Made by a program: the position numbers and the translations under genes
Assembly: GCA_949741925.1 (NCBI GenBank)
Contig: CATJOY010000047.1
Span: forward strand, 1 to 64,000
DNA length: 64,000 nt
Direction: 5' to 3'
From: an uncultured Desulfovibrionaceae bacterium
Lineage (GTDB): Bacteria; Desulfobacterota; Desulfovibrionia; Desulfovibrionales; Desulfovibrionaceae
Notes under the pieces: generated by a model
What the model saw: only the letters and a program-made list of their open reading frames with translations
Told to the model about the DNA's origin: nothing
The model's database searches: none
In this document: one piece after another, positions 37,304 to 49,457 of the stretch
Position numbering within the stretch: position 1 is the stretch's first letter
Layout: each line of letters starts with the position of its first letter

Positions 37304-38227
37304 TTACGGAGAAGCTGATTCCGCAGAGGAGCCCGGCGTATCCTTCCAGCCGCGGCAAAAGGCCAGGAAACGGCGGAGCGGAGTAGAGAGGTATTTGCGC
37401 GAATGATAGCATAGCGTAAAAGTTCTGGGAAACGTCTGTTCCAGACTGATGACCTTAATCTTATTGCGGGCCAGAAGTTCTGTGGCGCTGAGTCTGGAAG
37501 CGAACGTGATACCTAACCCCTGGGCCACGGCTTCGGTAATGGCCGCCGGAGAATTGAGGGTCATGGCAATGGTATGCTGCCCCAAGTGGGGGGCTAGGGT
37601 ATGGGCGAAAAATTCCCGACTGCCTGAATCCTGTTCGCGCAGAATCCAGGGCTCCCCGGCCAGCGAGGAGAAGGGGAGAGGCGTACGCGTGGGCAGAGGG
37701 TGGCTATGCGGGGCCAGGACCACCATTTCATCCGCAATCCAGGGCTCAAAAATCAGCTCCGGGTGGCGTTCCTCTCCTTCGATCAAAGCGATATCCAGGG
37801 CAAAGGATGCGATCATGCGCAGCAGGGCGCGGGTGTTGGCGATGCGGACTGCCGGCAGCCAGCCTTCCCGGCGCTTAAAGGCGGCGTAGACCCTGGGCAT
37901 GAGGTAGTTGCCGATGGTCTTGCTGCATCCGGTCAGCAGGAGATGGTCATCAGGGTCAACGCTGCCTTGGGGCCTGAAGCTCCGTTCAATATCAACAGCT
38001 CGCTCCACCAGTTCATCCGCCAGCGGCAGGAGCCTCCGGCCTTCGTGGTTAAGGCTCAGACGCGGATGGGCCCGGTCAAAGAGCTGAACTCCCAGCCGCC
38101 GCTCCAGCTCCTGCAAAGCCTGGGATACCGCTCCCTTCGTCATGAACAGCTTTTCCGAGGCCCGAGAAAGATTTTCATGCCGTGCCAACACAGTAAAAAC
38201 CTGGAGCTGCTTTAAGGTGATATTCAT
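37304..38227 (-). CDS. LysR-type transcriptional regulator
   Basis: 307 residues. HTH at the N-terminus (LKQLQVFTVLARHENLSRASEKLFMTKGAVSQALQELE), then the LysR effector-binding domain (LLTGCSKTIGNYLMPRVY). Diverges from the TDT-type carrier gene across about 100 AT-rich bases, so the carrier is a likely target. Overlaps no neighbour. Confidence 0.88.
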   Translation of the reverse strand: MNITLKQLQVFTVLARHENLSRASEKLFMTKGAVSQALQELERRLGVQLFDRAHPRLSLNHEGRRLLPLADELVERAVDIERSFRPQGSVDPDDHLLLTGCSKTIGNYLMPRVYAAFKRREGWLPAVRIANTRALLRMIASFALDIALIEGEERHPELIFEPWIADEMVVLAPHSHPLPTRTPLPFSSLAGEPWILREQDSGSREFFAHTLAPHLGQHTIAMTLNSPAAITEAVAQGLGITFASRLSATELLARNKIKVISLEQTFPRTFTLCYHSRKYLSTPLRRFLAFCRGWKDTPGSSAESASP

Positions 38228-38251
38228 TGTTTAGTTTTCCTTAACAACCCG

Positions 38252-38281
38252 TTAATTTTATTTCGATATACTGGATATAAT
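38252..38281 (+). promoter_or_regulatory. Promoter of the TDT carrier
   Basis: TTAATT at 38252-38257, 18-base spacer, TATAAT at 38276-38281. Perfect -10 box, weak -35. Lies 48 bases before the start at 38330. Confidence 0.45.
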
Positions 38282-38329
38282 TCCTATGGCAAGTTGCCCC
38301 GATGCATCAAAAAGAAGAGGTTTATTGCC

Positions 38330-39343
38330 ATGGTTCGCGCTGCAATTACTGAAGCTTCCCGAATTCCTACGCCCTTGGGCGGTCTGGCCCTGGGCATCGC
38401 CAGCCTGGGCTGGTGTCTTGAAAACGTCTTTCCCCTTGGCGGCCTGGGACAACTGGCTGGAGCAGCCGCTGCCGCTATTTTGCTGTTGTTGCTGGTTGCC
38501 AAGTTTATTCTGCATCCTTCGCGTCTGGGTGAAGATCTGGCCCATCCTGTGGCCGGCAGCGTTTTGCCCACCTTTGCTATGGCGGCAATGGTCATATCCA
38601 GGTGCGTCGGGCTGGGGCTGCCCGAGGTTGGCCGGATTATCTGGCTCATTGCTGTTGGCCTGCATCTGACGCTGCTTGCGGCCTTTATCGGCCGTCGTTT
38701 GTTGGACCCCCAGTTCAAGCAGATGGTGCCAAGCTGGTTTATCCCGCCCGTAGGTATTGTTACTGCCGCACTGACTGTTCCCGACGGAATGAGCGGAGAC
38801 AGCTTCCATGCTTTGGCTTACGGCCTGATGACCTTTGGGGTGCTGAGTTATTTTCTGTTGCTGCCCCCCATGGTGTACCGGATGATTTTCCACCACCACG
38901 AGATCGTGGATGCGGCCAAGCCGACCATCGCTATTCTGGCGGCCCCGGCGAGCCTTTCGCTGGCGGGGTACCTCAGCGTGGAGTCGGACCCCTCGGTTGT
39001 CCTTTGCGCCGCGCTCCTGGGCATCGCCCTGTTGATGACCGCGGTTATTTACCTGACGCTTGTTCGTCTGCTGCGGTTGCCCTTTAGCCCAGCCTACGCC
39101 TCTTTCACCTTTCCGCTGGTCATCGGAGCGACTGCGTTATTTAAAGCGAGCGAGTTTTTTGCCGCCTTCCCGGGCCACGAAGAGTTTGCCGGGATCGTGC
39201 GCCTGCTGGCGGCGGGAGAACTGACTGTAGCCATACTGGTGGTAGGCTTTGTCTGCGCGCTGTATCTCAGAAGTGGTATCTGCGCGCTATCCATTTCGGA
39301 AAGAGCCTCCGAAAGAAAGAGCAACGTTCTGGTCAAATTGTAG
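38330..39343 (+). CDS. TDT/SLAC1-like carrier (TehA-type)
   Basis: About 337 residues, almost entirely hydrophobic with ten likely membrane segments, as in the tellurite/dicarboxylate transporter family (TehA, Mae1, SLAC1). Typical motifs are TPLGGLALGIASLGW and the WFIPPVGIVTAAL segment. Start 38330 follows AAGAAGAGG; an upstream TTG is less good. Substrate may be a C4-dicarboxylate, sulfite or other anion. Probably controlled by the divergent LysR gene. Confidence 0.8.
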   Translation: MVRAAITEASRIPTPLGGLALGIASLGWCLENVFPLGGLGQLAGAAAAAILLLLLVAKFILHPSRLGEDLAHPVAGSVLPTFAMAAMVISRCVGLGLPEVGRIIWLIAVGLHLTLLAAFIGRRLLDPQFKQMVPSWFIPPVGIVTAALTVPDGMSGDSFHALAYGLMTFGVLSYFLLLPPMVYRMIFHHHEIVDAAKPTIAILAAPASLSLAGYLSVESDPSVVLCAALLGIALLMTAVIYLTLVRLLRLPFSPAYASFTFPLVIGATALFKASEFFAAFPGHEEFAGIVRLLAAGELTVAILVVGFVCALYLRSGICALSISERASERKSNVLVKL

Positions 39344-39782
39344 ATATCTTTACGCCGGGCCGATTCCGGTCAGCCCGGCTGCCCCTCTCGGTTGCGGCAG
39401 GTGTGGCCTTGGAGGGGGCTGGCTCCGGTTCCGGGATGTCTCCAGCCGGACCGGGGCCGGCAGTATTTTTAAAAATATTTTTTGTCCGGTCCGCAGGTGC
39501 AGGACCATGCCGCCCCCCTTCTGCGGCATACGAAGGCTTTGGGGATCAACCCCGGTCCGGAATCGCCCGGTCCGGGGCTTTTTTGCGGGAGAAAATCGCC
39601 TGAGTACCCTACCCAGGGGGAATAGCCGGAAAAGTGCTTATAGCTGGCATACCAATTTGACGAAAGGATAAAATTTTTTTATTTCTCATCGCGCGCATTT
39701 TTTCCTAGTACGCATGGAGAAGAGAGCTAGGAAGCGACTGTTTTGTCTATATTTTTTAACCGTTTTACAAGGAGACTTTGCT
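39344..39782. other. Gene-free region before the permease
   Basis: No convincing ORF. Contains the terminator of the carrier gene (separate entry) and, for the permease, a possible weak promoter TTGACG (39657-39662) with TATTTC 17 bases on (39680-39685), plus a T-rich leader and the AAGGAG ribosome-binding site. Confidence 0.5.
39550..39583 (+). terminator. Terminator
   Basis: CCCCGGTCCGG (39550-39560) pairs with CCGGTCCGGGG (39567-39577) with one central T-T mismatch; loop AATCGC; then CTTTTTTG. Confidence 0.75.
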
Positions 39783-41066
39783 GTGGATACCATGATCCTG
39801 GCACAAATTCTGATGGGCGCTACCCTGATTTTGATGGTTACAGGCCTCACTCCCCTGTACACCACAGCTATTTTGGGGTCCGCCATAGCAGGCATCGTGG
39901 CCGGGTTTCCTCTGGCCGGAAGCGCTGAGATCACTATCGCCAAACTGATTAACAGCGGTTTGAACCCCGTTATTGCCGATATGACCGGTGTGCTGCTGTT
40001 TATCGGGGTTATGTCGTCCGCGGGCTTTTTGGACGTGATCATCAAAACTATTATTCGCGTAGGTCGTAAAATGGGCGGCGGCCCGGGCGTAGCCACCGCG
40101 GGCGGCATTGCCGGCGGCATCATCGGCGCCTTGACCGGTTTCACCCAACCCGCCATTACCGGCGTTATTACCGGCCCGGCTGCTATCAAGCTGGGGGTTG
40201 ATCCGAGTAAGGCCGCGGGCATCACTGCCCACGCCGGCCACTTCGGGAACTTCGCCGGTTTCACCCACCCCACTCAGGTTGCTCTGATTGCCGCGGCGGG
40301 TATCGGCTTCGGGGCCATCAACGTTGCCGGGGCCATTGTCGCCCTGACCATTTTTGCCGTCAGCTTTATCCGCTTGCAGCGGCAGATGAAGGCCAGCGGC
40401 TCGATTATGACGCCGGAACAGATGGAAGCTGCCGCTGCTGAATACGAGCGCAGCGATAGGGGAATTTCCGCGCCTGTGGCCTTTGCTCCGTTTCTCGTGC
40501 TCTTTGTCGGCTTTATTGCCGGTTTCCCCATCTTCCTGGTTGGTCTGATCGCCGGCCTTGTCACCATCGGCTTGGCCAAGCTCAATCCCAAACAGGGTGA
40601 AGCCGCTATGTTGGAAGGCGTCAACAAAATCGCTACGCCTATTGTTGCCACTATCGGCTTTTTGTTCATGTCCGCCATGATCGGCAAGGTTGGGCTTACC
40701 GGTCTTATCGGCAAGGCCATGGCGCCGCTGCTCGATGTTTCCCCGCTGTTGGTCATGTGGATCGTGGCCGCCCTTACCGGCCTGCTGACCCAGTCTTACG
40801 GTGCTTCCAGCGCTGTTATCCTGCCTATTTTCCAAGTGGTGGTGCAGGCCGGCGCTGATCCTCTGGCTGCGGTTATTGCTGCGGGCGGTGGCGCTTCGAC
40901 CATGCAGTATTTCCTGACCGGCGGCCCGGTAGCTGCTCTGGCTACGGTTATCCCGGTCATTCCCGGTTCTGATCTGCGTCAGGCCAATAGGTTCCAGCGC
41001 CCCTCCATTCTCTGTGGAACGTTTATGGCCCTTGTGTTGTGCATGATCGTGGGCTCGTTCTCGTAA
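39783..41066 (+). CDS. Putative permease of the ion transporter superfamily (GntP-like)
   Basis: 427 residues with about eleven membrane segments and two conserved blocks: ALTGFTQPAITGVITGP and GITAHAGHFGNFAGFTHPTQ (with the mirrored SYGASSAVILPIFQ in the second half). This is the plan of the gluconate/citrate-type permeases (GntP and related). Substrate unknown; the neighbours (unknown protein, L-asparaginase) suggest an amino acid, amide or organic acid. Starts at GTG 39783, eight bases after an AAGGAG site. Confidence 0.6.
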   Translation: MDTMILAQILMGATLILMVTGLTPLYTTAILGSAIAGIVAGFPLAGSAEITIAKLINSGLNPVIADMTGVLLFIGVMSSAGFLDVIIKTIIRVGRKMGGGPGVATAGGIAGGIIGALTGFTQPAITGVITGPAAIKLGVDPSKAAGITAHAGHFGNFAGFTHPTQVALIAAAGIGFGAINVAGAIVALTIFAVSFIRLQRQMKASGSIMTPEQMEAAAAEYERSDRGISAPVAFAPFLVLFVGFIAGFPIFLVGLIAGLVTIGLAKLNPKQGEAAMLEGVNKIATPIVATIGFLFMSAMIGKVGLTGLIGKAMAPLLDVSPLLVMWIVAALTGLLTQSYGASSAVILPIFQVVVQAGADPLAAVIAAGGGASTMQYFLTGGPVAALATVIPVIPGSDLRQANRFQRPSILCGTFMALVLCMIVGSFS

Positions 41067-41471: not shown

Positions 41472-42713
41472 ATGCGTATCCGTTTCAGCGAACAGAAAAA
41501 AGGCGTTATCGCTGTTGCCGGTCATGCCGGAAGCGGCCATTGCCATAGTCATAAGCAGTATTTGCAAGAAGATTCCGGCGGCTTGGCCACTGTTTTAGCC
41601 CTGTTTCAGGAGGCTACGGGCCTTTCTCTCACTATCAAGGAAATTCGGGTTTCTCCAGGGATACAAGGGACTATCACTGTGGAAACCGTATCGGGCGGCA
41701 TTGGTTTCTGCGCGCCACGGCGCGGGGTGACAGTGCATGAAGCGCGTCTGGCCAAAAATCTTGAGGGACGTGACGCCATCCGTACCCAAACCTTGGTTAT
41801 GGAGGCCTTTGGCCGTTTTTACGGCCAAGGAATCCACGAAACGCCGGTGGCGCTGCAAACTGCCATAGCCAATGCGGCTGTTGATAGCTTCATAAAGAAT
41901 TATCCGGGTCAGTTCATTCATGCTACTGAGGATATCGACCATTGCTGCGGCAAGATCGCGGGCGCGATTTTTGATTTTGGCGATATTCCCGTGGCGGTGC
42001 TGGCAACGGTTAACGCGACGCCCGACGGAACCGGTCCGGTGGAGGATATGGAAGGCAACGCCGCCATCGGGGCCAAGAAAAGGGTTATGGAAGCCCTGGG
42101 GATGTGCGCTGTGCCGACCATCGAGGTGGAAGGCAAGGTGTATTCGCCGGCCTATTCCGATACGGCTGAAGCCCCCTATTTTATGATCCGTGCGGATAGA
42201 GAGGATGATAACCCGGTTGTGGCCGAAGCCCTTGTAGCGGGTGGGAAAAAGATCGGCTGCCCGGTTGTTTTCCGTGATGACGTCATGAAACGCGTTGCCG
42301 GAGGCCTGGAAGATGGCGTCAAAGCCCTTGGAGACGCCATTATTGCTGCCGGCCGGGAGCTCAAGGAGGCGCGGTATTCTCAGCACAAGATTGCGGCTCT
42401 TGCCAAGCTGGCTCGGCTGATCAGCGAAGACGGCGCCGGCATAAGCTTTATGTCCGACAGGCTCCATGAAGTTATTGGCGGAACGGGCATCATGCCGGGC
42501 ATGGGCGCAGTCATGAACTACATTGTGCCGAAATCATATCGTGATGCTTACATCTTTCCCTTTCTCACGGAAGACGACATTATGCGGTATACGGCTCTGG
42601 TCAAGGCCGGCGTTGTTGCATTGAACGCTGTTTTGCCGCAAGCCGTAGAACATTTACACCGCTACGCCTACCAAGGCGATATCGAGACCATGGTTCTGTT
42701 TCCCCCCAAGTAA
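41472..42713 (+). CDS. Unrecognised 413-residue protein between a permease and L-asparaginase
   Basis: I do not recognise the family. No signal peptide and no strong membrane helix, so probably a cytoplasmic enzyme. It has clusters that could bind metal: GHAGSGHCHSH near residues 17-27 and DHCC at 156-159. A Gly/Ala-rich central part is followed by a helical C-terminus with ISFMSDRLHEVIGGTGIMPGMG. The reading frame is intact, with normal codon use, a CGGAGA ribosome-binding site and only 13 bases to the asparaginase start, so it is certainly expressed with its neighbours. An amino-acid or amide enzyme working with the permease and asparaginase is an inference from position. Confidence 0.7.
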   Translation: MRIRFSEQKKGVIAVAGHAGSGHCHSHKQYLQEDSGGLATVLALFQEATGLSLTIKEIRVSPGIQGTITVETVSGGIGFCAPRRGVTVHEARLAKNLEGRDAIRTQTLVMEAFGRFYGQGIHETPVALQTAIANAAVDSFIKNYPGQFIHATEDIDHCCGKIAGAIFDFGDIPVAVLATVNATPDGTGPVEDMEGNAAIGAKKRVMEALGMCAVPTIEVEGKVYSPAYSDTAEAPYFMIRADREDDNPVVAEALVAGGKKIGCPVVFRDDVMKRVAGGLEDGVKALGDAIIAAGRELKEARYSQHKIAALAKLARLISEDGAGISFMSDRLHEVIGGTGIMPGMGAVMNYIVPKSYRDAYIFPFLTEDDIMRYTALVKAGVVALNAVLPQAVEHLHRYAYQGDIETMVLFPPK

Positions 42714-42726
42714 AGGAGTATGTGTC

Positions 42727-43707
42727 ATGAACGGAAAAGTTGTTGTGTTTACTACCGGCGGCACCATCGCCATGCGCTATGATCCTGAGATCGGCGGTGC
42801 TGTGCCGGCCGTCAGCGGGCCTGAGCTGATTGAAGCCGTGCCGCCGCTCGCCGATGTTTGCCCTGTGGAAGTGAGGGAGTTCAGCAACATCCCCAGCCCG
42901 CACATGACGCCGAAACGCATGTTTGATCTGGCCAAACAAGTGGAAAAGGCCCTTGAGGAACCGGATACGCTCGGGGCGGTCATTACCCACGGCACGGATA
43001 CTCTGGAAGAAACGGCCTATTTCCTCGATCTTTGCATCAAGAGCGATAAACCCGTTTGTTTGACCGCCGCTATGCGCAGCGCGGCGGAAATCAGCCCGGA
43101 CGGGCCGAAGAATATCCTATGCGCCGTCCGTTGCGCGGCCTGCCCGGAGGCTCGCGGCAAAGGTGCGTTTGTGGTCATGAATGAGGAAATCCACGCGGCG
43201 CGCGAGGTGACCAAAACCCACTCCGCCAACCCCAAAACATTTGCTTCTCCCTTCTGGGGGCCGGTGGGCTATGTGGATGCGGACCGGATTATTTTCCGGC
43301 GTGACTCCATCGAGCCGCAGAAAATCCACCCCGAAAGCATTGTCGATGACGTGCACCTTATCAAACTGGTGGCCGGCGCCGACGATTTCCTGTTCAACTA
43401 TCTTGTGGATAAAAAAGTAAAAGGCATCGTGGTGGAAGGCTTCGGACGCGGCAATGTCTCCCCCGGCGCCTTTTCCGGTATGAAGCGCGCTGTTGAGAAC
43501 GGCATTCCCGTCGTGCTCACTACCCGTTGCCTCGGCGGCCGGGTTTTGGATGTCTACGGCTATGAGGGCGGCGTTATTCGTCAGAAGGAAGCGGGCATCA
43601 TTCTTGGCGGCGAAATCAACGGACAAAAGGCGCGGATCAAGCTTATCCTTGCCCTGGGCATGACTCAGGATCGGGAAAAGCTTGCCGAGTACTTTGACAG
43701 GCCGTAA
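42727..43707 (+). CDS. L-asparaginase
   Basis: Hydrolyses L-asparagine (perhaps also glutamine) to the acid and ammonia. 326 residues, the normal length. Active-site signatures are TTGGTIA (residues 9-15, nucleophile Thr) and HGTDTLEETA (88-97, catalytic Thr/Asp). There is no signal peptide, so it is the cytoplasmic type. AAAGGAG site. Third gene of the cluster with the permease and the unknown protein: the group can import an amino acid and deamidate it, though the exact links are inferred. Confidence 0.93.
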   Translation: MNGKVVVFTTGGTIAMRYDPEIGGAVPAVSGPELIEAVPPLADVCPVEVREFSNIPSPHMTPKRMFDLAKQVEKALEEPDTLGAVITHGTDTLEETAYFLDLCIKSDKPVCLTAAMRSAAEISPDGPKNILCAVRCAACPEARGKGAFVVMNEEIHAAREVTKTHSANPKTFASPFWGPVGYVDADRIIFRRDSIEPQKIHPESIVDDVHLIKLVAGADDFLFNYLVDKKVKGIVVEGFGRGNVSPGAFSGMKRAVENGIPVVLTTRCLGGRVLDVYGYEGGVIRQKEAGIILGGEINGQKARIKLILALGMTQDREKLAEYFDRP

Positions 43708-44506
43708 CGCCCTTTGCTTTGCCGGGGGGGCTTCCCCCATGCTCTTGCTCTTTTTAGCGAAGACGGCCGGAGCGCTCTTAAACCCCAATGCTGCGGGCGC
43801 CCTCATTCTCCGGGGGCACCCGCAGTTGTTACCGAAGCCTGTTGTGGCAAGGGCCGCTCCGCAGGCCCGGGGTGGCGCCCTCCCGGGCCTGCGGGAGCAT
43901 GTCTCCACCAACTCCGGCGTTAAGGAAGGCCTCATCTCCCCGGAGCCTCTCCAGCCTTTGGGAATGCCCCGGCTCCCCCGAGCAGGGGGGGCCGTTGCCG
44001 GAGGCTGCCCCGGTCACTTGCCGGCAAAGCCCGGCGAGCAGCTCGCAGCTTCCCCGCTCCCTGATCGGCCGGAATTCTCGGGCCACAGGGTTCGAGGCTC
44101 GGCCCATCTGCAAAGGCTGTATCCTGCCTTCCGCGATTTTTCCTCAACCTTTTTTTATTCTGCAGGCAACACACCGGACAGTAGGAACGCTCAGCTCTCT
44201 TCTTGGGGCGTGCTTATGGCTTCCCCGTTTGAAAAAAGCATACCTGTGTTCTCTGCCAGATAATGCGTTGAGGAGGGAATCAGATGAAATACGATTGTAT
44301 GTGAAAAGTTACTCTTGCAGAAAAAAAGAGAATAGGGATTGAGCGAAGGCTGAAAGTGATCTATGAAAACGGAACCGTATTATTGAAACCATGCCCCGAT
44401 TCTTTTTCTCGGCATGGAGCGGCTTCGGAACCGGCCGGAACAGGGCGCGCCCGCTCCGGCTCCTACGCTAAGGCTGCTTGACGGCAGACCGGCTAAAGGT
44501 GATCTC
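43708..44506. other. About 800 gene-free bases before korD, with a micro-ORF
   Basis: No credible gene, despite length and GC content (open frames present are shadows without codon bias). At its end are a seven-codon ORF (stop included) at 44284-44304 encoding MKYDCM after a strong GAGGAGG site, and a bulged hairpin at 44389-44417 (separate entry). A promoter for korDABC should lie in the last part. Confidence 0.45.
44389..44417 (+). other. Hairpin upstream of korD
   Basis: CCATGCCCCGA (44389-44399) pairs with TCGGCATGG (44409-44417), bulging two C; loop TTCTTTTTC. No T run follows, so it may be a structural element rather than a terminator. Confidence 0.4.
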
Positions 44507-44749
44507 ATGAAAAGACTGGCGATTCAACGAAGCTGGTGCAAGGGCTGCTCTATTTGCGTGGCCTTTTGCCCCAAGGATGTCCTGGCGCTTGACAGCGAGG
44601 ACAAGGTGTATGTGAAAAATCCGGAGGCCTGCATTTTTTGCAGAATGTGCGAATTGCGTTGTCCGGATATGGCCATTGAGGTCAGGGAGGATGGGGAGGA
44701 AACGGCTTCCTGTTCTACCCCTGCCGACAACGCGCGGCCCGGAGCCTAG
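44507..44749 (+). CDS. korD: 2-oxoglutarate:ferredoxin oxidoreductase, delta (ferredoxin-like) subunit
   Basis: 80 residues with two 4Fe-4S clusters: CKGCSICVAFCP (residues 11-22) and CIFCRMCELRCP (42-53). Passes electrons from the KorAB core to free ferredoxin. ATG at 44507 behind AAAGGTGAT. First gene of korDABC, nine bases before korA. Confidence 0.9.
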   Translation: MKRLAIQRSWCKGCSICVAFCPKDVLALDSEDKVYVKNPEACIFCRMCELRCPDMAIEVREDGEETASCSTPADNARPGA

Positions 44750-44758
44750 GAGGAAAGT

Positions 44759-45907
44759 ATGAGCAATGATATTCGTTTCGTCCAAGGCAATGTCGCCTGC
44801 GCGGAAGGGGCGCTTTACGCGGGCCTGGATTTTTTCGCGGGCTATCCCATCACTCCCTCCACCGAGGTAGCCGAACATCTGGCCGAAGAGCTGCCCAAGC
44901 GCGGCGGCAAGTTTATCCAGATGGAAGATGAAATTGCCTCCATGTGCGCCGTTATCGGCGCCTCGCTTGCCGGCTCCAAATCATTGACCGCTACCTCCGG
45001 GCCGGGGTTTTCCCTGATGCAGGAGGCCCTCGGCTATGCTTGCATCGCCGAGGCCCCTTGCGTGGTCTGCTCTGTCATGCGCGGCGGGCCTTCTACGGGG
45101 CTGCCTACCAAAGTTTCTCAGGGCGATGTAAACCAGGCCCGCTGGGGTACCCATGGCGACCATGCCATTATTGCCTTGACCGCTTCCTCGGTACAGGATG
45201 TTTTCAGCGTCACCGTGGAGGCCTTTACGCTGGCTGAAACCTACCGCACTCCGGTGATTCTGCTCTTTGACGAGGTTATCGGGCACATGCGTGAAAAACT
45301 GGTTGTGCCCCCGGCGGGAGAACTTGCGGTAGCTCCGCGCCTGTATACGGAGGTTCCCGCCGGTCAGGCCTTCCACCCCTATCTGCCCCGTGAGGACGGG
45401 CGTTTGCCCATGGCTGACTTTGGCAGCCACCACCGCCACCATGTCACCGGGCTGTTCCACGATATCTGGGGCTTTCCCACGGAAAAGCCCGAGGCCGTGG
45501 CAAAGCTGCTGCACCGCCTGGTGGATAAGATTGAAAGCCACAGCCAGGAGATAGCCCGCTGGAAGGAATACTTTCTTGAAGACGCCCGGACTCTGCTTAT
45601 TTCCTACGGCTCTTCCGCGCGCACGGCCCGGCATCAGGTTGAGATCATGCGGGCCAGGGGAGAAAAGATCGGGCTTCTTGAACTGCAAACCATCTGGCCG
45701 TTCCCGGCGGAACTGGTGCGGGAACACGCCGCGCGCTGTAAAAACGTCTACGTGGTGGAAATGAACATGGGACAGCTCTTCTCCACCGTAAAACGCACGG
45801 TGGAGAAGCCCGAACGGGTCTACCTTGTCAACCGCATCGACGGCGAACTGGTTAAGCCCATGGATATTGAAAATGTCGTGCGTACCGTCGAAGGCAAGGG
45901 GGTATAG
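44759..45907 (+). CDS. korA: 2-oxoglutarate:ferredoxin oxidoreductase, alpha subunit
   Basis: 382 residues. Large subunit, with the CoA/TPP-domain signatures GNVACAEGALYAGLDFFAGYPITPSTEVAE and SGPGFSLMQEALGYAC and the C-terminal part (VYVVEMNMGQLF). The reaction is 2-oxoglutarate + CoA + oxidised ferredoxin to succinyl-CoA + CO2 + reduced ferredoxin. Could also use another 2-oxoacid, but the adjoining sucCD supports 2-oxoglutarate. AGGAGG site. Confidence 0.92.
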   Translation: MSNDIRFVQGNVACAEGALYAGLDFFAGYPITPSTEVAEHLAEELPKRGGKFIQMEDEIASMCAVIGASLAGSKSLTATSGPGFSLMQEALGYACIAEAPCVVCSVMRGGPSTGLPTKVSQGDVNQARWGTHGDHAIIALTASSVQDVFSVTVEAFTLAETYRTPVILLFDEVIGHMREKLVVPPAGELAVAPRLYTEVPAGQAFHPYLPREDGRLPMADFGSHHRHHVTGLFHDIWGFPTEKPEAVAKLLHRLVDKIESHSQEIARWKEYFLEDARTLLISYGSSARTARHQVEIMRARGEKIGLLELQTIWPFPAELVREHAARCKNVYVVEMNMGQLFSTVKRTVEKPERVYLVNRIDGELVKPMDIENVVRTVEGKGV

Positions 45908-45909
45908 CC

Positions 45910-46725
45910 ATGTCCAGTGATCGTTTTATCCGGGAACGTTTTTTCCCGCAAATCTGGTGCCCCGGCTGCGGCCACGGCACCATACTTAATAACCTGGTGC
46001 GCGTGGCCCGGGAAATGGGTCTGGATCCGGAAAAGGTCTGCACTGTTTCCGGCATCGGCTGCTCGGCCCGTATCTCCGGCTACCTGGATTTTCACACCAT
46101 GCATACCCTGCACGGCCGGGCCTTGGCCTTTGCTACCGGAGTTAAGCTGGCTCGGCCCGAGCTGACTGTTTTGGTTCCCATGGGGGATGGCGATGCTCTG
46201 GCCATTGGCGGCAACCACTTTATTCACGCTGCCCGCCGCAACATCAACATGACCGTCTTTGTCATGAACAACCGCATTTACGGCATGACCGGCGGGCAAT
46301 ATTCGCCCCTTTCCGGAACCGGCGTCCTGGCTACTACCGCTCCGTACCGCAGTATTGACCGCGATTTTGATGTGGTCAAGTTGGCTATGGGCGCCGGTGC
46401 TACCTTTGTTGCCCGGACTACTGCCTACCACGTGCAGGAAATGGCTAAGCTCATGAAGAAGGCCATCAGCCACAAGGGCTTTGCCGTGCTGGAGATCCTC
46501 AGCCAGTGCCCCACGTATTTCGGCCGTAAGAACAAACTCGGCGGCCCAGTGCAGATGCTGGAGTATTTCAAGGAAAAAACCGTACCTCTCGGGTCGGATA
46601 AACTGAACCAGGATCCTACCCTGATCCCGCGCGGCATTTTCGTGGAAGAAACCATTCCCGAATACTGTGATGAATATGCCAAGATAGTCGCCCTCGCTCA
46701 GGAAGGCGCCAGGAAGAGAGGCTGA
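45910..46725 (+). CDS. korB: 2-oxoglutarate:ferredoxin oxidoreductase, beta subunit
   Basis: 271 residues: TPP-binding subunit. WCPGCGHGTILNNLVRVA near the start and the metal/TPP motif GDGDALAIGGNHFIHAARRN with NNRIYGMTGGQ. It carries the active thiamine and a 4Fe-4S ligand set. Two bases after korA. Confidence 0.93.
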   Translation: MSSDRFIRERFFPQIWCPGCGHGTILNNLVRVAREMGLDPEKVCTVSGIGCSARISGYLDFHTMHTLHGRALAFATGVKLARPELTVLVPMGDGDALAIGGNHFIHAARRNINMTVFVMNNRIYGMTGGQYSPLSGTGVLATTAPYRSIDRDFDVVKLAMGAGATFVARTTAYHVQEMAKLMKKAISHKGFAVLEILSQCPTYFGRKNKLGGPVQMLEYFKEKTVPLGSDKLNQDPTLIPRGIFVEETIPEYCDEYAKIVALAQEGARKRG

Positions 46726-46727
46726 TC

Positions 46728-47273
46728 ATGGAGAAGAACCGCTTTTTACTGTCCGGCTCCGGAGGCCAAGGGGTCATCACTATGGGCATTCTTCTGGCCG
46801 AGTCTGCAGCGCTCCATCAGGGGCTGGAAGCCATCCAGTCCCAATCCTACGGGCCCGAGGCCCGGGGCGGCGCCACGCGCTGCGATGTGCTCATTGACCG
46901 GGTCCCCATCGCCTTCCCTAAGGTTCTGGAAGCCAACGTGCTGGTTTGTTTGACCCAGGAAGCCCTGAACAAATACCTTCAGTTTCTGCGGCCGGGCGGC
47001 CTCCTGCTGACCGATTGCACCCTGGTGAAAGCCCCCTCCCGGGTAGATGCCGAGCACATCGGCTTGCCCATGCATGATTCGGTCATCAAAGAAATCGGAA
47101 AAATTCAGACCTTCAATATCTGCGTTCTGGGAGCGCTTCTGGAACTGACCAAAGTCGTCCAGGCCTCGTCCGTTGAGAAAAACCTGGAAGCCCGCTTTGC
47201 CTCGCAGTTCCACGCGGCCAACAAGCAGGCGCTGGATCTCGGCATCAGCCTGGCCAAAGCCTGTACGGCATAA
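46728..47273 (+). CDS. korC: 2-oxoglutarate:ferredoxin oxidoreductase, gamma subunit
   Basis: 181 residues, POR_N/gamma-type: FLLSGSGGQGVITMGILLAESA, then SQSYGPEARGGATRCDVLI, both typical. Completes the four-subunit complex. Two bases after korB and 145 bases before sucC, from which it is separated by a strong hairpin. Confidence 0.92.
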   Translation: MEKNRFLLSGSGGQGVITMGILLAESAALHQGLEAIQSQSYGPEARGGATRCDVLIDRVPIAFPKVLEANVLVCLTQEALNKYLQFLRPGGLLLTDCTLVKAPSRVDAEHIGLPMHDSVIKEIGKIQTFNICVLGALLELTKVVQASSVEKNLEARFASQFHAANKQALDLGISLAKACTA

Positions 47274-47289
47274 GTAAAAGCCGTGGCGA

Positions 47290-47323
47290 CCACGGGGAGG
47301 GCAGCGCCCTCCTCGTGGCTTTT
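47290..47323 (+). terminator. Strong hairpin between korC and sucC
   Basis: CCACGGGGAGGGC (47290-47302) with GCCCTCCTCGTGG (47306-47318), 13 pairs including one G-T, loop AGC, then CTTTTGG. May act as a partial terminator so that sucCD and kor levels can differ. Confidence 0.65.
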
Positions 47324-47418
47324 GGGGCCGGGGAGCGCAATTTTGGGGTAGGGAGACCCCCCGGCTCCTGCGAAATAGGGTATTTCGTTTATTGTAACCG
47401 GTTTACTGTGAGGCATGC

Positions 47419-48585
47419 ATGAATATTCATGAGTTCCAGGCAAAAGAACTGTTGCGCCGCTACGGCGTGCCCACTCCCAAAGGGAGTGTGGCGCGTTCTG
47501 TGGAAGATGTGGCGCGGGTGGGGGCTTCTCTGGCTCCCGGCAAGCTGGTGGTAAAAGCTCAGATCCATGCGGGCGGTCGGGGCAAGGCTGGAGGCGTCAA
47601 GCTGGTCAATTCCGTGGAAGAGGCTAAGGAGGCGGCTGCTTCGCTTCTTGGGGCGACTCTGATTACCCCCCAGACCGGACCGGGCGGCAAGGTTGTGCAC
47701 GCCGTGCTGGTGGAGGAGGTTGCCCCCATTGCCAAGGAATACTACGCAGGCATTACCCTGGATAGGGAGAGCCGGAGAATGTGCTTGATGGTCAGCCGCG
47801 AAGGCGGCATGAACATCGAGGAAGTGGCCGAAAAGTTTCCGGAGAGCATCGTCAAGGTTTTCATTGACCCGCGTTTCGGTCTGCAAACCTTTGAGGCTAG
47901 AGCATTGGCCGAAGGACTCGGCTTGAGCGGCAAGGAACTCTTTGCGGGCGCAGCGGTCTTTATGAACCTGTACAAAGCCTGCCTGGAGCTGGATGCCTCG
48001 CTGGTGGAAATCAACCCCCTGGTCAGGACCGAAGCCGGGGCCATTGTAGCCCTGGACGCCAAAATCTCCTTTGATGATAGCGCGCTTTTCCGCCACAAGG
48101 ATTTGTTGGAACTGGAGGATCTGACGGAAATTGATCCCCAGGAATACCGCGCCTCCTCTATCGGCATGAAGTTTATTAAGCTGGATGGCACTATCGGCAT
48201 GATGGCCAACGGCGCGGGGCTGGCTATGACCACCATGGATATTATCCAGCAGATGGGTGGCAGAGCCGCGAACTTTTTGGATGTTTCCGGCGGGGCCTCC
48301 GAAGAAATGATCGCTGAGGGCACCAGGCTGATTCTGGAAGATCCGCGGGTGAAGGCGATCTTTATTAATATATTCGGCGGCATTCTCCGGGGCGATATCC
48401 TGGCCCGCGGGCTGTTGATGGGCTTGGAAGGAAAAGCCAGCCCTGTGCCTATCGTCATGCGGCTGGTAGGCACTAATGCCGAAGAAGGCAGGCAGATTCT
48501 CAGGGATTCGGGCCTGCCCTTCACTGTGGCGGAAAATCTGAGTCAGGCGATGGAGCGGATCGCCGAGATAGTGAGGCAGCAATGA
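47419..48585 (+). CDS. sucC: Succinyl-CoA synthetase (ADP-forming), beta subunit
   Basis: 388 residues. ATP-grasp beta subunit: [22 protein letters not shown], ending in [11 protein letters not shown]; the core has [27 protein letters not shown] and the NIFGGI loop. With SucD it converts succinyl-CoA + ADP + Pi to succinate + ATP + CoA. GAGG site 5 bases before the ATG; overlaps sucD by four bases. Confidence 0.95.
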
Positions 48586-49457
48586 GCATTCTTGTCGATT
48601 CCTCAACCAGAGTTCTTGTGCAGGGTCTTACCGGCTCCGAAGGGAAATTCCACGGCGAGCGCATGATGCAGTATGGAACCAAGGTCGTGGCCGGCGTCAC
48701 CCCCGGCAAAGGCGGCCAAGAAGTTTTGGGGCTGCCGGTTTTCAATTCCGTGGCCGAAGCGGTACGGGAGACGGGGGCCAACACCTCGATCATTTTTGTG
48801 CCTCCAGCGGCCGGGGCCGACGCTATCATGGAATCGGCGGCGGCGGGCGTTGCTTTGTGCGTCTGCATCACTGAGGGCATACCGGTGCTGGATATGGTCA
48901 AGGCCATGCATTTTCTTGAAGAGCACAAGGGGATGACCCTGATCGGTCCTAACTGCCCCGGCGTTATTTCCTCAGGCAAATGCAAAGTGGGCATCATGCC
49001 CAACCATATTCACAAGGAAGGTTCCGTGGGTGTCATCTCCCGCAGCGGTACATTGACGTATGAAGTGGTTGGCCAATTGACCGCGGAAGGCCTGGGCCAA
49101 TCTACATGCGTCGGCATCGGGGGTGACCCTCTGATCGGCACCTCTTTTGTGGATGTGCTCCGCCGTTTTAAAGACGATGAACAGACTGAGGCTGTGGTGC
49201 TCATCGGCGAGATCGGCGGTTCCGCTGAGCAGGATGCTGCCGCGTACATCAAAGAGGAATTTGGTAAGCCCGTCTTTGCCTTTATCGCCGGGCGCAGTGC
49301 TCCCAAAGGCAGGCCCATGGGCCATGCCGGCGCGGTTATTTCCGGCAAATCCAGCACGCCGGAAGAGAAAGTTGCCGCCCTTAAGGCTGCTGGCATCCAC
49401 TATGTGGAATCTCTGGCCGAAATTGGAGCCACTGTGCGCAAGGTTTTGCGCGGCTGA
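48582..49457 (+). CDS. sucD: Succinyl-CoA synthetase, alpha subunit
   Basis: 291 residues, CoA-binding subunit. Opens with [16 protein letters not shown]; the phosphorylated catalytic His is His248 in [15 protein letters not shown]-type CoA site and [19 protein letters not shown] are conserved. Translation coupled to sucC. Pairs with KorDABC so that glutamate-derived 2-oxoglutarate yields reduced ferredoxin and ATP. Confidence 0.95.

Follow-up and report, generated by a model that had tools for sequence, protein, structure and literature searches.

A protein family absent from the searched libraries and encoded beside carriers, L-asparaginase or D-cysteate sulfo-lyase is a possible racemase of aspartate-like amino acids

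What is the function of the gene that lies between a permease and an L-asparaginase on a contig of an uncultured Desulfovibrionaceae bacterium? The stretch of 64,000 nucleotides that was analysed (called here the window) carries the three genes on the same strand (Table 1), and the original prediction described the middle one, called here W, as an intact coding frame with a normal start. This description holds, since the reading frame is unbroken and begins with ATG. An in-frame GTG further upstream would yield an alternative product of 429 aa, whereas most relatives start at or near the position of the W ATG. Compared with the homologues of loci L002 and L004, to which it is 66-68% identical, W differs by 0.57-0.59 per site at third codon positions and by 0.24-0.27 and 0.16-0.17 at the other positions, with a dN of about 0.23-0.25 and a dS of about 2-2.8, a saturated value. 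Because of this third-position bias and of a dN close to one tenth of the (saturated) dS with respect to its nearest homologues, W is a real gene under purifying selection. Scans for promoters and terminators gave counts no higher than in shuffled sequences.

Table 1. Gene W, its two conserved signatures and its adjacent genes in the window
Feature	Position	Strand	Remarks
Permease	39714..41066	+	405 bases from permease end to gene W ATG
Gene W	41472..42713	+	413 aa, enzyme-like, in an unnamed family; putative racemase or epimerase for aspartate-like amino acids
N-terminal signature (G)HxGxGHxxSHxxxxQxDS	41523..41579	+	codons 18-36; invariant H18, H23, S26, Q32, D34
Signature NxxxxGxGPxEDxEGN...K	42012..42077	+	codons 181-202; invariant N181, E191, D192, E194, K202
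L-asparaginase (PF00710 + PF17763)	42727..43707	+	13 bases 3' of gene W; no evident signal peptide

The spacing and identity of the asparaginase were as predicted. The upstream gene is a permease, as had been claimed, but the label GntP-like is unconfirmed because the protein has no match in Pfam or NCBIfam and its homologue in locus L013 is weakly CitMHS-like, with a score below threshold. Upstream of the permease, a LysR regulator is divergent from a gene for a SLAC1/TehA-type anion channel (37304-39343); sulfite exporters are among the members of the wider TDT family. After the asparaginase, genes for a ferredoxin, subunits of a 2-oxoacid:ferredoxin oxidoreductase and succinyl-CoA-ligase-like proteins follow on the same strand (44414-49457).

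To assign W to a known family, searches were carried out with single sequences and with a set or profile of 29 members, W and 28 relatives. No credible match was obtained for the 29 members in Pfam and NCBIfam, for the window protein, searched alone, in PHROGs, or for W among PDB sequences. The only Pfam match of W, to MR_MLE_N (PF02746), is sub-threshold (E 0.021, residues 53-139) and was taken as due to chance because it is present in one of the 29 members, and the enolase superfamily (MR/MLE; PF02746/PF13378) was consequently rejected. W thus belongs to a family that is unnamed in every library searched, in agreement with the original prediction of no recognised family, and the profile search that it had proposed returned no strong match to a characterised family. 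Regarding racemases, none of the 29 members matches the CuyB and Asp/Glu racemase profiles (PF01177, NF052483) at E 0.1, and W cannot be the published CuyB since NF052483 describes the Asp/Glu-type protein. A distant kinship of W to CuyA, CuyB, the asparaginase or the permease received no support from hhalign. An AlphaFold2 model built from four input sequences (pLDDT 36, pTM 0.29) gave no usable fold.

Conserved residues were then sought among the 29 sequences. Besides those of the two signatures listed in Table 1, Q119, E220, R240, D246, N247 and R274 are invariant, and these many acidic, basic and histidine residues point to an enzyme. The original prediction had drawn attention to His/Cys clusters near residues 17-27 and 156-159 and to a Gly-rich C-terminal piece. 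The first cluster survives through H18 and H23, its other residues being conserved to various degrees (H27 in 26/29, H25 in 17/29 and C24 in 5/29). By contrast, H157, C158 and C159 of the second are unconserved; C159, the best-conserved cysteine of W, is found in 15 of the 29 sequences and no cysteine is conserved family-wide, so a catalytic Cys cluster at 156-159 was rejected and the second cluster has no family-wide function. The Gly-rich piece (about 336-346) is conserved in part, with G339 invariant and P342 and G343 nearly so. The usual PLP-independent racemases employ two-cysteine chemistry. With no conserved cysteine, W cannot share this mechanism with the racemases and epimerases for Asp/Glu, proline and DAP, and the proline racemase/DapF type was also rejected for want of a Pfam match. 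PLP-dependent racemases are marked by a Schiff-base lysine; Pfam ties W to none of the known PLP folds, whereas the family has a single invariant lysine, K202, and a new PLP fold is conceivable for W.

How widely is W distributed? The gene is present in single copy in the window's genome. Among 84,980 species genomes, scanned at a depth that reaches only close relatives, three relatives of 67-68% identity were recovered, in two MAGs labelled Accumulibacter and in one Spirochaetia bacterium. A profile search in the window's family revealed a patchy distribution, with a copy in 31 of 288 genomes, one of the 31 being a fragment; a 32nd match (G649, E 4e-4) was rejected. Outside this family W is rare: in order and phylum samples, convincing copies were found in G071 and G184 and an unconvincing one in G363. 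Apart from the queries, no copy was detected in 198 genomes of the phylum of the Spirochaetia bacterium and no convincing copy in 398 genomes of the phylum of the Accumulibacter MAG. IMG/VR and phage collections contained no relative, and a single plasmid record, from Fusobacteria (CP102408.1), carries W. A 58-aa piece resembling the W C-terminus (41% identity) is found downstream of an SDF-like symporter gene in G392:C40 (L152 2637-2810) and is probably a gene remnant.

The neighbourhoods of W were compared in 32 loci. Six resemble the window in having the permease, the asparaginase or both; in 23, W immediately follows DctM, the large permease of TRAP transporters, in two it follows an NhaC-type carrier, and the remaining one is on the Fusobacteria plasmid. 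The pair formed by W and an asparaginase recurs outside the window in four loci (L003, L004, L012 and L013), two of which are outside the window's family and which extend to other phyla; in L003 and L004 the paired genes share a 4-base overlap. A homologue of the window permease accompanies W in full length in L002, L012 and L013 and as a fragment in L003, and in L002 the contig ends where the asparaginase would be expected. The order permease, W, asparaginase proposed as a test by the original prediction therefore recurs, but in a minority of loci, most relatives being placed behind TRAP transporters and often beside D-cysteate sulfo-lyase. Neighbours that would not be conserved among relatives were looked for and not found.

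In nearly every locus W sits immediately after a carrier, DctM, NhaC or the CitMHS-like permease, frequently no more than 60 bases away, an arrangement that a non-catalytic protein assisting or regulating the carrier would also display. Such a role is nevertheless very improbable: the same W accompanies three unrelated carrier types, in L004, where the gene order is reversed, W follows the asparaginase instead of the permease, and the dense invariant polar residues are typical of an enzyme.

Among the 25 loci with TRAP or NhaC-type carriers, 16 contain the D-cysteate sulfo-lyase gene cuyA, usually together with ridA; the CuyA of L024, for instance, reaches 520 bits with the D-cysteate sulfo-lyase profile NF052482, whose cut-off is 450. 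NhaC-type carriers also directly adjoin CuyA in L116, L117, L121, L124, L130, L073 and L074, and these may transport cysteate or sulfite instead of acting as Na+/H+ antiporters. In the tree of W sequences, the asparaginase-type copies group with the Fusobacteria copy (support 100/100), and this group is sister to the main TRAP-CuyA group. CuyA linkage appears on further branches too (L014, L016, L073/L074), with at least three separate branches in total.

A 2024 paper (PMC11382572) describes CuyB as the enzyme that interconverts the two cysteate enantiomers and states a preference of CuyA for D-cysteate. The profile NF052483 (racemase_CuyB) matches an Asp/Glu-type racemase encoded next to many cuyA genes that lack W. 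When the presence of CuyA was scored in the window's family, it was found in 30 of 31 W-bearing genomes and in 56 of 257 genomes without W (Fisher test, 7e-17, kinship ignored); the former count takes in the window's genome, whose CuyA is alone on another contig. An Asp/Glu-type racemase is encoded near CuyA in only one of 16 W-bearing loci compared with 24 of 41 W-less loci (p 3e-4, phylogeny ignored), and an SDF-type symporter is often present at the racemase-bearing W-less loci. Genome-wide, with the CuyB class defined as 150 bits or more, a line set after the scores had been seen (the curated cut-off is 190), a CuyB-class racemase occurs in 4 of 17 genomes with CuyA-linked W versus 41 of 56 genomes with CuyA and no W (p 4e-4, phylogeny ignored). 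CuyB is thus mostly missing where W sits with CuyA. Among genomes carrying W with CuyA, G036 has no CuyB-like protein at E 1e-10, G740, G741 and G749 have none better than about E 4e-12, and G184, from outside the family, has none of the CuyB class. CuyA-linked W and a CuyB-class protein occur together in five genomes: both W and CuyB adjoin CuyA in G071, the sole such case among the 16 loci, and in G702, G703, G704 and G039 the CuyB-class proteins are encoded elsewhere. G392 and G393, which are outside the family and whose W is of the asparaginase type, encode a CuyB next to CuyA.

Because its relatives hold the usual place of CuyB in cysteate operons, W may be a second, unrelated amino-acid racemase. 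From the family, the conserved residues, the operon settings and the pattern of CuyB replacement that we observed, we infer the reaction, its substrates, direction and chemistry as follows. W would belong to an undescribed family of racemases or epimerases acting on aspartate-like amino acids and bearing no sequence relation to Asp/Glu racemases, a reading to which we give a probability of roughly 0.42. In the operons with TRAP transporter, W, RidA and CuyA, W would convert imported L-cysteate to D-cysteate and stand in for CuyB, CuyA would cleave D-cysteate to sulfite, ammonia and pyruvate, and RidA would clear the enamine intermediate of this reaction. For the window, we envisage uptake of one asparagine enantiomer, D-asparagine for example, through the permease, followed by D/L interconversion by W (which might instead act on aspartate) and hydrolysis of L-asparagine to aspartate and ammonia by the asparaginase. 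Both partner enzymes, asparaginase and CuyA, act on substrates of aspartate/cysteate shape, and since cysteate is the sulfonate analogue of aspartate, one active site, modestly changed, could serve both. More tentatively, W could have founded a racemase family devoid of catalytic cysteines that took over from the Asp/Glu-type cysteate racemase in anaerobes that degrade sulfonates and was re-used alongside asparaginase for the catabolism of D-asparagine or a related compound.

A hydrolase, possibly metal-dependent, that frees an amino acid from an imported conjugate, which could be an N-acyl or peptide-linked form of cysteate for the relatives encoded with CuyA and of asparagine for the window copy, would equally be expected between a carrier and the next catabolic enzyme, and the invariant H18, H23, D34, E191, D192, E194 and D246 would suit a metal site. 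We consider it rather unlikely, because a hydrolase releasing L-cysteate would leave CuyA in need of a racemase while CuyB is mostly absent from the W-CuyA loci; CuyB replacement would be explained only if the conjugate contained the D form.

The nine TRAP-W loci with no CuyA nearby (L017, L051, L066-L072) often contain a GntR regulator, and W is apparently the only enzyme encoded in them; its substrate there may therefore not be cysteate. Eight of these nine genomes carry CuyA elsewhere, six of them together with an Asp/Glu-type racemase, and in these six W could duplicate an existing activity or act on a different substrate. On the Fusobacteria plasmid (L011 2336-11182, CP102408.1), the W homologue is divergent, behind a Crp-like regulator, from a (2S)-3-sulfopropanediol dehydratase cluster with a TauE-type exporter, in which no CuyA was found. 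These nine loci, this plasmid and G394, which has W and asparaginase but no CuyA, would all fit an enzyme, for example a lyase, mutase or isomerase, that carries out a different step on an aspartate-like acid in a separate pathway supplied by the TRAP transporter. The link to CuyA would then reflect general sulfonate metabolism, and the CuyB pattern a lineage bias. This reading is less likely than the racemase, given that CuyA is encoded elsewhere in eight of the nine genomes and that CuyA linkage arises on several branches of the W tree.

Does the racemase reading extend to cysteate in the window itself? Linkage to CuyA with CuyB missing, as would suit a cysteate racemase, is found for the W family and not for the window copy. 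The full-length D-cysteate sulfo-lyase gene of the window's genome (G000:C52:50215-51204; L107 9171-10229) is isolated: in the 9 kb upstream and 3 kb downstream of it, neither a racemase nor a fitting carrier gene was found. The same genome encodes, on the minus strand of G000:C68 (L150 7661-11099), a CuyB-type protein that scores above the NF052483 cut-off. Since the window copy is on the asparaginase branch and its genome also holds this protein, W need not act on cysteate there. The G000:C68 gene adjoins two tandem methylaspartate ammonia-lyase genes and not cuyA, and for its product the NCBIfam label cysteate racemase is perhaps overly specific.

The original prediction had proposed a new enzyme of amide or amino-acid catabolism. 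A catabolic role is supported by context, as the wider W family is tied to cysteate catabolism through CuyA and the pair with asparaginase recurs; a functional Cys cluster was not retained. Cysteate is a common organosulfonate whose anaerobic breakdown feeds sulfite and sulfide production. If the racemase reading is true, the pathway would be completed by a non-homologous racemase in those family genomes that have D-cysteate sulfo-lyase and W but no detectable CuyB, and W would represent a further enzyme family for a type of reaction to which few cofactor-independent solutions exist.

Among known systems, CuyB (NF052483, of the Asp/Glu/hydantoin racemase family PF01177) occupies the same niche, beside CuyA and a carrier, and the reaction proposed for W, L/D-cysteate interconversion, is the same. 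By contrast, CuyB is about 240 aa long compared with 413 aa for W, hhalign with 15 CuyB-type sequences gave a probability of 0.4%, and the catalytic cysteine pair of the CuyB family is absent from W, whose cysteines are unconserved. CuyA (D-cysteate sulfo-lyase, NF052482, PLP-dependent), the operon partner of 16 W relatives, is a different protein with no hhalign similarity to W. Likewise, the type II-like L-asparaginase (PF00710/PF17763) that accompanies W in the window and in four other loci gave an hhalign probability of 0.5%, and W is not an asparaginase.
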